64,000 nucleotides of DNA from a virus, in IMG/VR virus record IMGVR_UViG_3300050343_000265, positions 19,954 through 83,953 of that record; one strand, given 5' to 3'. Shown here in pieces: positions 37,609 through 64,000 of this stretch. Position numbers and translations under genes: made by a program. The stretch's first letter is position 1; every line of letters begins with the position of its first letter. Under the pieces are notes generated by a model. The model saw only the letters and a list, made by a program, of their open reading frames with translations. It had not been told where the DNA came from and ran no database searches.

Positions 37609-37975
37609 CCTCTTCTACCTGCTCTTGAAAGTTCTGCGAATACGTTGCGCCTGTATCTGTAACAGTGGTTTGCTCCTGAAACATGGCATACAGTTGCCCC
37701 ACTGCGTTACCTACTGCTTCTGTTACCTGTCCAATTGCTTCAACACGCTGAGTCATAAACGAAACTTCGTTCCTCATATCTGCAACTTCTTGACGCAATG
37801 CAATGGTGTGATCCATCAGGGAAGGCACTTTTGGAAGGGGCCTTGTTGCTAGTGGTCGTTGCGGAGCATCGGGTACAACGGGTTCAGCAGGAACGGTTGC
37901 TTGTGCTCCTGCGATGATCTGTGCAATGCGTGCCTGCATTTCAGGTGGCAAGTTATCCATATTTGAATTAGTCAT
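37598..37975 (-). CDS. Hypothetical coiled-coil protein
   Basis: The 125-residue protein has a proline-rich N-terminus (EPVVPDAPQRPLATRPLP) and a coiled coil (LRQEVADMRNEVSFMTQRVE). It overlaps genes on both sides by one to eleven bases. Unknown function in the replication operon. Confidence 0.6.
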   Translation of the reverse strand: MTNSNMDNLPPEMQARIAQIIAGAQATVPAEPVVPDAPQRPLATRPLPKVPSLMDHTIALRQEVADMRNEVSFMTQRVEAIGQVTEAVGNAVGQLYAMFQEQTTVTDTGATYSQNFQEQVEEGDY

Positions 37976-38715
37976 TAGAATTCAGTTTCCTCTTCTACTT
38001 TTTTAGTTGCAGTTGTTGTCCCTACATGGGCTCCACGTTTGTCGGTTCCACCAGCAGGAAGACCTTTCTCATCGACTTGTTTGCCATCGAAAGGATCCTT
38101 GCCTTCAAAGAAATTAGGAAGCCAGATGGTGTCCTTCTCTTTGTCCCAAGTTGACTTAATTTTATCTGGCACCTTACGGACCTTCGGTAGGATGCTGTAT
38201 GTAGTTTCCAGACCGGCTCCCTTGCGGCTAATCTTAATTGAAAAATTAGCAAGTCCGTCTTCTGTCCAAGTGTAGTCTTCAATTTCTTGAAGAATTTCTG
38301 TGAGCTGTTCTCTAAGTGATTTTTGTTCAATGAAAAGTACCTCTAAACGACCGCGAGCTGCACTAGTGCCAACCCAAGCGAGGAATCGCCGGGGCTTGAC
38401 ATAAGTTCCATCGATTTTTGGTCGATCGGGCTTGGACCAATCGGTCTCTCGTGCGATGTCTTCGGGCTGCCCAGGATGAGTGCGAGTAACAACGTAGCCG
38501 TTGAAACGCAAATCACCAGTCTTAGCATCACGGCATTCGGATGCGTACTGCCAACCCACGATTGCGTGACCTGTTTCGTAGCAGCCGAGTAGCCGGAACT
38601 CTTCTGACTCTCCGTCTTTAAGACTGCTTGGTTTCCAATAAGGTTGTGGTTCTCTTGTTTCAATTTTATCTTGGTTTTTCTCCAGCATTTCTGGAGGTAG
38701 GACTTGTAGCGCCAT
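37975..38715 (-). CDS. Hypothetical replication-operon protein
   Basis: The 246-residue protein has mixed alpha/beta sequence (EEFRLLGCYETGHAIVGWQY then KPRRFLAWVGTSAA) and a charged C-terminus ending KKVEEETEF, like the acidic tail of single-strand-DNA binding proteins. It may be a ssDNA-binding or recombination mediator protein, by position and tail only. Confidence 0.55.
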   Translation of the reverse strand: MALQVLPPEMLEKNQDKIETREPQPYWKPSSLKDGESEEFRLLGCYETGHAIVGWQYASECRDAKTGDLRFNGYVVTRTHPGQPEDIARETDWSKPDRPKIDGTYVKPRRFLAWVGTSAARGRLEVLFIEQKSLREQLTEILQEIEDYTWTEDGLANFSIKISRKGAGLETTYSILPKVRKVPDKIKSTWDKEKDTIWLPNFFEGKDPFDGKQVDEKGLPAGGTDKRGAHVGTTTATKKVEEETEF

Positions 38716-39789: not shown

Positions 39790-40449
39790 TCAATAGTCAG
39801 GTACAGGGTCTACTTCGCCGTAGCCCTTTGCTTGGCCCGTTGTTCGAGCTTGAGAATTAGATCTCTCCTTTTCTTTGCGAGTAGTGAAGTCGTTTGCAAC
39901 GATTGCACGGTAAGGGCTTGCGTCACCTTCCTTGCGGTATTCACGGAGATAGCCATGGACGCATATGCCACGTCCACTACGGATTCGATCGCTAAGTTTG
40001 GACTTCCTGCTTTCATGGAGTTCCATAAAGAGCCAGGTAGTGACGTCAGCGTTATCCAGGGTAGTCCCAATTTTGGTTGCGATTTGTCCATTCTTGCGTT
40101 CCTTAATGTCGTTAGATCCAAAGAATGCATTACCTAGGACAACCTGATTGCAATACATATCCTGTGGAATGTTGAACTCGACAGTGGTTACCATCAGATC
40201 CAATGGCTGTGCTGTGTCCTCAGAGAAAACAAGATAGCCAGTGATCAGTGCACGATTACCTTTCTTCCATTCGAGGAACGAGTCGAGCTTGGGACCGGAT
40301 CTGTCGTAACAGAGAACTCGGAGTTTGACCTCGTTGTCACCACTGCCAGCGGGGATAACAGCATCAGCCCCGCGATAGTCCAACCCATAAGCATTGATCG
40401 GATCTGAAATAATGGATCTGAGTTCAACTGTGGCTGCGATAAAATTCAT
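39790..40449 (-). CDS. OB-fold single-stranded DNA-binding-like protein
   Basis: The 219-residue protein reads as one or two OB-like modules with NEVKLRVLCYDRSGPKLD, ALITGYLVFSEDTAQP, then VTTWLFMELHESRK and GRGICVHGYLREYRKEGDASP, typical of SSB (GxVxG, Y-R-x-G). The C-terminus is Gly/Gln-rich and acidic. It is probably a phage SSB or SSB-like protein. A second OB protein lies at 59103. Confidence 0.65.
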   Translation of the reverse strand: MNFIAATVELRSIISDPINAYGLDYRGADAVIPAGSGDNEVKLRVLCYDRSGPKLDSFLEWKKGNRALITGYLVFSEDTAQPLDLMVTTVEFNIPQDMYCNQVVLGNAFFGSNDIKERKNGQIATKIGTTLDNADVTTWLFMELHESRKSKLSDRIRSGRGICVHGYLREYRKEGDASPYRAIVANDFTTRKEKERSNSQARTTGQAKGYGEVDPVPDY

Positions 40450-48828: not shown

Positions 48829-49252
48829 TATTTATACTTTGGTTATGTTTGCTGTGCTTAAGCACATACTCAGTAAGACGTTGTAAGTGCTTTGGACTAT
48901 CTTCGACAAGTCCTAATACGATGTTGCAATCCTTGCAGAGTAGTTCTCTTACAGTTCCAGTTACATGGTCGTGATCCACACACCATTGGTTGTGCTTTCC
49001 TCTAGGTTCTGAAGTACCGCAGCAGGCGCACTTGGAGCCTTGAGCAAGCACCATCCTATTGAAAGTAGCAAGAGTGATGCCGTAATTACGCTGATAGTGT
49101 AAATCTCTTGCTCGTTCTGGGTCTCGGGTAGCCTTAACCCTTGTTTTAGTACACTCTTTACATTCATATTTATAACCGTTAGGTCGTGAGTTGTCTACAT
49201 AAAACTCTGATATTTCTTTTATTGTTTTACACTTGCAACATTTTCGTTCCAT
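48821..49252 (-). CDS. Endonuclease VII-like HNH nuclease
   Basis: MERKCCKCKTIKEISEFYVD at 49252 is the natural start. The 143-residue protein has two Cys pairs (CCKC and CKECT), then CACCGTSEPRGKHNQWCVDH followed by DHVTGTVRELLCKDCN and IVLGLVEDSPKHLQ, the endonuclease VII/HNH pattern. Such nucleases resolve junctions or act as homing enzymes. Its position directly beside psbA recalls homing endonucleases known to target psbA in cyanophages. Confidence 0.88.
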   Translation of the reverse strand: MERKCCKCKTIKEISEFYVDNSRPNGYKYECKECTKTRVKATRDPERARDLHYQRNYGITLATFNRMVLAQGSKCACCGTSEPRGKHNQWCVDHDHVTGTVRELLCKDCNIVLGLVEDSPKHLQRLTEYVLKHSKHNQSINND

Positions 49253-49257
49253 AAAAA

Positions 49258-49277
49258 AGGCCCACACTTGTGAGCCT
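49258..49277 (-). terminator. Terminator after psbA
   Basis: AGGC-CAC/GTG-GCCT around ACTT, with A6 to its left giving a U run on the minus strand. Confidence 0.8.
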
Positions 49278-49302
49278 ATCTAAACTAATTGACGCTTGTG
49301 GA

Positions 49303-50390
<1,088 letters not shown>

Positions 50391-59102: not shown

Positions 59103-59528
59103 TTAAGCAACAGGTTCGAGAGCAGGAGCTTTGTCGATAACGACGTCACCTGCGTCATCTTTCTTGTAAGCACCGTAGCCACCACTCAACACAACAGCGT
59201 TGGTGAGTTTGAGCTCAGGGCGACGACGATACTCTGTTTTACCTGTCTTTTTGTCGAAGTAGGTTTCAGAGAAACCAGACAGATGACCGGTGACAGTAAT
59301 CGTACGTCCTGTCCAATCGCGATTGGATTTGATGAAGGTGTCAAGCAAACCGTTGTTGCTGTTGATCTTGACGGCAATAGCTTGTCCATCACTGACAAGA
59401 TCAGAAAGAACGGTCATGGAGAGAAACTCTCCATACTGACCGACAACGAGCTCTGCGAAGGACACTCGACCAGTGATGGTGAGAGCGTTGAAGTCCGCAA
59501 AGGTCTTCTTGTCGTTGGAAGTTGTCAT
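59103..59528 (-). CDS. Single-stranded DNA-binding-like protein (OB fold)
   Basis: The 141-residue protein has LTITGRVSFAELVVGQYGEF, IAVKINSNNGLLDTFIKSN, GRTITVTGHLSGFSETYFDK and KPELKLTNAVV-like ending, an SSB/OB pattern. The C-terminus lacks the usual DDIPF acidic tail. A 55-residue protein at 63412 carries that tail. TGTTCTTTA is 16 nt before its start. Confidence 0.7.
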   Translation of the reverse strand: MTTSNDKKTFADFNALTITGRVSFAELVVGQYGEFLSMTVLSDLVSDGQAIAVKINSNNGLLDTFIKSNRDWTGRTITVTGHLSGFSETYFDKKTGKTEYRRRPELKLTNAVVLSGGYGAYKKDDAGDVVIDKAPALEPVA

Positions 59529-63411: not shown

Positions 63412-63579
63412 CTAGAAAGGGATGTCGTCGAACTCAGCTTTCTCCATAGGCTGATCAAGGAAGAGTGGATACTCTTCATCGGGAGCATTACAGTCAAAGT
63501 TGTAGACAACGCCAACGTAGTTGCCGTCCTCATTTATGTACGTGTAACCGGAGTTACCGAACTGTTGAAGGAAGATCAT
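63412..63579 (-). CDS. Small protein ending with SSB-like acidic tail
   Basis: ATG at 63579 gives MIFLQQFGNSGYTYINEDGN and ends at 63412 with AEFDDIPF. The last residues match the universal SSB C-terminal tip (DDIPF) that recruits host RecQ, PriA, Exo I and others. The main OB protein at 59103 lacks this tip. It could mimic or supply the tail in trans. TGTTCTTTA is 13 nt upstream. Confidence 0.6.
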   Translation of the reverse strand: MIFLQQFGNSGYTYINEDGNYVGVVYNFDCNAPDEEYPLFLDQPMEKAEFDDIPF

Positions 63580-63591
63580 GATTTAATTATG

Positions 63592-63600
63592 TAAAGAACA
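63592..63600 (-). promoter_or_regulatory. Leader element TGTTCTTTA
   Basis: Exact 9-mer on minus 13 nt before the ATG at 63579. Confidence 0.6.
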
Positions 63601-63612
63601 TACATAATTAGA

Positions 63613-63628
63613 GAGCGCCTTAGCGCTC
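63613..63628 (-). terminator. UAAG-loop hairpin with no gene to its right
   Basis: GAGCGC/GCGCTC with CTTA loop. On the minus strand it should follow a transcript coming from the right, but no convincing gene lies there. Confidence 0.6.
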
Positions 63629-64000
63629 AATAACCCTCACGAGTTCCCTTAGTGGTAGGTGTGGTAGGTTCACACAACACAGAGGCCGAGAGACATCTAA
63701 TGTTACGCACAAGTTCTAACGTAAGTTATGAACGACAGTTATCCAACTGAAGTAACTGGTGCTTACAAATGTGAACGCAAGACGAGAACGAACACAACAC
63801 AATAGTTAACATTAAGTGTTGAACTAAAGATATTGTGTGAGTTCTACTTGCGTGAACAGAAGAATAAACGTGAGCTCAATTGCGTAAGCAATTACGAGCG
63901 AACTACAGTAGTAATGAGCGAGCGAAGCGAGCGGGTGAAACCCTTGTGCTCTACTAGTTTATTTTTTTTGTTCCACCGGCCGATCGGGAACAGAGGGTAT
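63629..64000. other. Repeat-rich right end, no convincing gene
   Basis: Contains inverted repeats ATTGC/GCAAT at about 63878-63891, GTTC/GAAC at about 63842-63858, repeated GTTCTA/GAACG units and GAGCGAGCGAAGCGAGCG near 63914. A 25-codon frame at 63729 is likely chance. Possible origin, packaging or regulatory DNA. Confidence 0.4.

Follow-up and report, generated by a model that had tools for sequence, protein, structure and literature searches.

A small acidic cyanophage protein ending in an SSB-type C-terminal tip: a possible decoy of the host SSB

Near the right end of an S-EIV1-like cyanophage genome we identified a gene for a 55-residue protein whose C-terminus, EFDDIPF followed by a TAG stop, is an exact SSB C-terminal tip. 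Judged from sequence, this tip is well supported as genuine and is very probably functional. The reading that we prefer, and to which we give about an even chance, is that of a small accessory cyanophage protein, probably expressed early, acting as a decoy by mimicry of the C-terminal tip of the host SSB. Host-type tips were also found on unrelated phage proteins, and this is a more interesting result than the single 55-mer.

The phage record has 83,953 bp and carries an exact 304-bp direct terminal repeat at both ends; the window, that is, the whole 64-kb stretch of DNA that was analysed, corresponds to its right part (bases 19,954-83,953). The record is that of an S-EIV1-like cyanophage; the best match of its terminase was found in Synechococcus phage S-EIV1 (54% identity), and 250 relatives of this terminase were present in viral contigs. 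Judging by their sequences, it also has genes for a sigma-70-type factor and a ThyX-like protein, as well as psbA. The psbA-like gene (window 48900-50390, minus strand) has one frame intact for about 280 residues, followed by two frame changes and a normal-looking end, and these two indels imply either a pseudogene or assembly errors. The features relevant to the tip protein are collected in Table 1.

Table 1. Positions of the tip gene, its leader, the SSB candidates and the terminal repeat in the window
Feature	Position	Strand	Remarks
246-aa protein	37975..38715	-	weak gp32 match; acidic tail ending ETEF
219-aa tandem-OB SSB candidate	39790..40449	-	private tail ending DPVPDY
141-aa OB-like protein	59103..59528	-	named in the initial annotation; ends APALEPVA, no PF tip
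55-aa tip protein	63412..63579	-	ATG to TAG; orthologue L002 637-804
Codons of terminal FDDIPF (SSB-type tip)	63415..63432	-	sequence read and tip statistics
TGTTCTTTA element	63592..63600	-	12-20 bases before the ATG of the 55-aa gene
Leader hairpin GAGCGC-TAAG-GCGCTC	63613..63628	-	typical of right-end gene cassettes
Right copy of the 304-bp terminal repeat	63697..64000	.	exact repeat comparison

The initial annotation had described a 55-residue protein ending in FDDIPF, and this was borne out: the open reading frame has an ATG start and closes with EFDDIPF and the stop codon, thus placing two acidic residues and [IV]PF at the very C-terminus. The gene is the nearest to the right terminal repeat in the window, and the replication genes lie elsewhere. 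The protein contains 11 acidic residues, one basic residue and one cysteine (net charge about -10.5, pI 4.05). A Pfam scan gave no match, and hence no OB-fold domain (PF00436) was recognised; a PHROGs search returned nothing below an E-value of 0.17, a match to families other than phrog_23504, and a sequence search of the PDB gave chance matches only. With its single cysteine and no profile match, the 55-mer falls outside the four-cysteine family phrog_23504 discussed below. The AlphaFold model, built on a two-sequence alignment, reached a pLDDT of 54.5, too poor to judge a DNA-mimic fold.

The whole record has four minus-strand copies of the 9-mer TGTTCTTTA, all of them in its last 4.5 kb and a short distance 5' of an ORF start; they precede the 55-aa gene and three other right-end genes, one of which encodes the 141-aa OB-like protein. 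The segment of the window between 58800 and 63640 (minus strand) is an array of small orphan genes, many with a hairpin and a T-rich leader and several with TGTTCTTTA shortly 5' of the start; as the order of this array is changed in the relative described next, its genes look as if they were exchangeable cassettes.

A single relative of the 55-mer was found, encoded in a 72,332-base contig (G001); in this one comparison the two proteins are 91% identical and the relative ends in EFDEIPF, that is, with DEIPF as its tip. The genes differ at nine codons, four of them silently (dN/dS 0.27), and within the tip the changes at D51 and I53 are silent, D52 is replaced by E, and P and F are unchanged. 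In G001 the tip gene is placed after a homologue of the 57-aa gene of the window, in a neighbourhood that differs from that of the window, and its TGTTCTTTA element is altered; the hairpin leader is present 5' of both copies. The ORF thus behaves like a real gene, with a single relative as the evidence for its conservation. No match to the 55-mer was seen in 48 plus 48 further related records, S-EIV1 included and many of them fragments, and the two positive controls for this query both recovered matches. The looser pattern [DE][DE][IV]PF-stop was present in 1 of 49 related records, namely G001. Neither a tblastn search of 50,697 phage records (E up to 10) nor a genome-contig search with the two-sequence alignment found any homologue, and a second scan of viral contigs with the alignment recovered the already known relative alone. 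The lack of a match in the 96 related records suggests that the 55-mer is a recent or rare acquisition within this phage group, to which it would not be essential.

From the residue composition of the record, 1.6e-4 DDIPF ends and 2e-3 [DE][DE][ILV]PF ends are expected among its 496 ORFs of at least 40 aa. When a broad tip expression was applied to 14,743 ORFs of at least 25 aa from the window and related loci, it retrieved the 55-mer, its orthologue copies and four unrelated PF endings, none of the four being IPF. In the viral collection, the back-translated pattern EFD[DE]IPF-stop (TAA or TAG stops only) matched 44 stretches, and a control with I and P exchanged matched none. Of these stretches, 43 close an ORF with a start codon; the remaining one, L109, looks like chance, as it lies in a 23-codon frame without a start codon. 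A second permuted-ending count, made on the collected loci, gave 11 versus 0 and was set aside because the 11 include repeated copies. The result of 44 versus 0 indicates that such an ending on a viral ORF is nearly always selected, and therefore raises the prior for the window protein.

We then compared the tip with the endings of cyanobacterial SSBs. In the WH 5701 family (Synechococcus sp.), 55 of 61 genomes gave a PF00436 match at the threshold used, and the short SSBs that were the best 30 of the 56 matches in the 61 genomes all ended in PF (EIPF 14, EVPF 11, DIPF 3, EAPF 1 and DVPF 1). Across 20 named cyanobacterial genomes a short SSB was called at 23 of 30 loci, 12 of those calls having the PF end, and the short SSBs of several other cyanobacteria have different ends (DEF, NANF and others). 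For the long cyanobacterial SSB, 14 out of 18 regions ended in DDIPF (8) or DEIPF (6), and the rest comprised one DFIPF, two other PF ends and one region without a call. We infer that these long SSBs are of the All4779 type, reported as the typical SSB of Anabaena (PMC3976300). The endings of the 55-mer and its relative are therefore the two that occur most often on the long SSB, in sampled cyanobacteria that may not include the host.

As regards the SSBs of the phage itself, a PF00436 search of the whole 83,953-bp record found nothing. The initial annotation had contrasted the 55-mer with the SSB-like protein at 59103, said to end without an acidic tip. The contrast stands in that the 141-aa protein indeed has no acidic-PF tip, but it is incomplete, since further SSB candidates are encoded by this phage, each with its own conserved tail. 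The 141-aa protein gave no convincing match to SSB families (best SSB profile, E = 0.34), and it and its relatives end in LEPVA, ASAEY, SEAAF and EPVAF. From their sequences, both this protein and the 246-aa protein appear to be OB-like or SSB-like; the gp32 match of the latter (E 0.026) falls below the curated cut-off, and an EF ending is found in 5 of 5 sequences.

The better candidate, and according to its predicted structure the likely main SSB of the phage, is the 219-aa protein. It had no Pfam or PHROG match. Its model (pLDDT 76.7) contains two tandem OB-like beta units followed by a low-confidence tail, and the two OB folds of this single chain match those of SSBs with solved structures. 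Foldseek ranked SSBs of Thermus and Deinococcus first (E 2e-7 to 1.2e-6), and VIA-align superposed the model on these SSBs with Z 12.8-13.5 over 177-183 residues (rmsd 3.6-5.0); the top of the VIA-align list, which leaves other folds possible, was an editosome OB protein (Z 15.9). The tail ends in P[DE]Y in 74 of 75 relatives of the protein (L317-L391, the exception being L378), and is perhaps a phage-specific SSB tip. The P[DE]Y and EF tails suggest that the phage uses tails of its own, none of its candidates having a host-type tip. The annotated ssDNA-binding protein of S-EIV1 ends in DEPF and showed no homology to the 219-aa candidate by BLAST or profile comparison. The proposal that the tip had been separated from the OB protein at 59103 was not sustained, since an IPF end was seen on none of the relatives of that protein and since the 219-aa protein, which has its own conserved tail, is the likely main SSB. 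We also dropped the idea of a tip split off from an SSB of its own lineage, as no IPF end occurred among the relatives found for the three OB-type proteins.

In the decoy reading, the free DDIPF end would dock in the tip pocket of at least one host SSB-interacting protein, and the 55-mer would keep such proteins off SSB-coated DNA. This step is drawn from the lack of a recognisable DNA-binding part in the 55-mer: by itself a free tip of this kind would not deliver partners to DNA, and it can fill their pockets, which favours a decoy or regulator. The phage SSB, having a different tail of its own, would not recruit the tip-binding host proteins. Expression early in infection is suggested by the position of the gene. 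The best general targets in picocyanobacteria would be the RecO and RecG candidates, with tip binding extrapolated from E. coli. In a survey of 76 cyanobacteria (PMC5101192), recF, recO and recG are reported from every one, recBCD is reported from marine Prochlorococcus and Synechococcus, and recQ is reported as missing from most Prochlorococcus, which makes RecQ, one of the targets initially named, doubtful for many hosts. According to the respective reports, small molecules that block SSB-protein contacts stop replication and recombination in B. subtilis (PMC3594151), and the last SSB residues decide the contact in the cases of E. coli YbcN (PMC4118853), DinG (PMC11981726) and the SSB of phage HK620 with Sak4 (PMC5928155).

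In favour of the decoy we counted the host-identical ending, the permuted control, the charge, the repeat-adjacent position, the private tails of the SSB candidates and the tips of the four-cysteine proteins (10 of 10); against it we counted the existence of one relative only, the absence from the 96 related records and the poor model.

The main rival is an adaptor, a reading that we consider rather unlikely. Here the N-terminal part of the 55-mer would bind one of the proteins of the phage, be it the polymerase, the helicase-primase, the exonuclease or an OB protein. Its tip would attract host enzymes of repair or replication to phage DNA in trans, and would so make up for the host-type tip that the phage SSB candidates do not have. 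The lack of such a tip on these candidates is itself a point for the adaptor, and so is the TGTTCTTTA element shared by the genes of the 55-mer and the 141-aa OB-like protein. A further point comes from the stand-alone tip proteins of phrog_23504, which are encoded in the replication operons of phages that have no SSB of the PF00436 type.

The phrog_23504 proteins have about 65-85 aa and four conserved cysteines, and [IV]PF is the ending of 10 of 10 sequences (eight from cultured-phage records, L309-L316, plus L107 and L110). Eight of the 16 matching records were read, belonging to phages of Erwinia, Escherichia, Salmonella, Sphingomonas (two), Paracoccus, Sulfitobacter and Variovorax, and a PF00436 SSB was found in none of these eight phages. 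In an alignment of seven members, identity to the first was 25-40% and the final P and F were invariant. The tip gene lies directly 3' of a helicase gene in five of six annotated records; in the sixth, that of E. coli phage fHy-Eco03, the preceding gene is labelled as encoding a structural protein. In Erwinia phage AH03, Sphingomonas phage Kharn and Paracoccus phage R3 the exonuclease gene comes first, followed by those for the helicase, the tip protein, the sliding clamp and the polymerase, with one extra small gene ahead of the clamp in AH03 and R3; the four-cysteine tip gene of R3 is unannotated. Located beside replication genes, this family may be of the adaptor type.

For the 55-mer, however, the adaptor has to contend with the location of the tip gene outside the replication genes and with the fact that other phages of the group manage without the protein. 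Moreover, the 55-mer has no DNA-binding feature or family match, its charge is strongly negative with one basic residue, and its gene sits beside the terminal repeat, so that, as far as its sequence tells, a decoy or inhibitor fits better and is likelier than recruitment to phage DNA.

Another rival, which we regard as improbable, is that the 55-mer is an acidic DNA mimic or some other inhibitor that reaches its target through its acidic body, the IPF end being incidental. Small early-type phage genes often encode inhibitors, and 11 acidic residues against one basic in a total of 55 would suit this role, but the ending is exactly of the host type and the permuted control shows that such ends are rarely accidental in viral ORFs. 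Least probable is a chance resemblance without SSB-tip function, which might be invoked because many windows were scanned for many motifs and because the one close relative has one of the two tip aspartates changed, but which is opposed by the minute expectation per record, by the permuted control and by the silent changes within a tip that keeps I, P and F.

Beyond the 55-mer, the 43 tip ORFs formed 22 sequence clusters (blastp without the last 7 residues), or about 20 families, as L107 and L110 share one PHROG and L096 and L097 another; the Pfam scan covered 20 of the 22 cluster representatives (L104 and L133 were left out). Tips were carried by SSB-type proteins, namely PF00436 at six loci, T7/Enc34-type ssDNA-binding proteins at three and, at four, a group of roughly 80-residue proteins that matched SSB families of PHROGs, and also by non-SSB proteins, namely helicase-primases (Toprim + DnaB_C) at five loci, AAA_5 ATPases at two and an SF2 helicase at one; further carriers were several orphans and a pair of proteins, each about 55 aa long, that matched no family. 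The T7-like helicase-primase of 551 aa (L092, L093, L102, L113 and L116) is thereby a helicase with a host-type SSB tip, its last residues being EFDDIPF. We found no report of a stand-alone SSB tip on a phage protein in the open-licence literature. Tentatively, and with somewhat less than an even chance, free-standing SSB tips may constitute a general phage device, so far unnamed, whereby phages without a host-type SSB tail carry the docking tag on separate, unrelated proteins, redirecting or blocking host SSB-interacting proteins. The carriers would be tiny acidic decoys, four-cysteine replication-operon proteins, helicases and AAA+ proteins.

SSB tips organise bacterial replication restart and repair. 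If our reading is true, a near-bare free tip would naturally inhibit or redirect the SSB hub and would provide a genetically encoded probe of this hub in cyanobacteria, and a class of small orphan phage genes would be explained by the last five residues of their products.

When compared with known systems, the 55-mer shares with the SSB C-terminal tip (DDDIPF in E. coli, and that of the cyanobacterial All4779-type long SSB) the same free terminal pentapeptide preceded by acidic residues; it differs in that it has no recognised OB fold, just 55 residues, a charge of about -10.5 and no attached DNA-binding protein. With the phrog_23504 proteins it shares its small size, its occurrence as a separate phage protein, an [IV]PF end and the lack of a PF00436 SSB in the phage, whereas those proteins have four conserved cysteines, are helicase-adjacent and show no sequence similarity to the one-cysteine 55-mer. 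The HK620 SSB (NDYPPF), acting with Sak4, is another instance of an acidic-aromatic C-terminal docking tail used by a phage, but that tail is part of an SSB and has a phage partner, while the tail of the 55-mer is of the host type and free. The acidic tails of T7 gp2.5 and gp4 are likewise acidic-aromatic docking tails, on an SSB and a helicase and with phage partners, in contrast to the free, host-type tail described here. Finally, the 55-mer resembles acidic inhibitors and DNA mimics such as T7 Ocr in being small, strongly acidic and likely an accessory early protein; no fold or sequence link to them is known, and the 55-mer carries a specific docking end.
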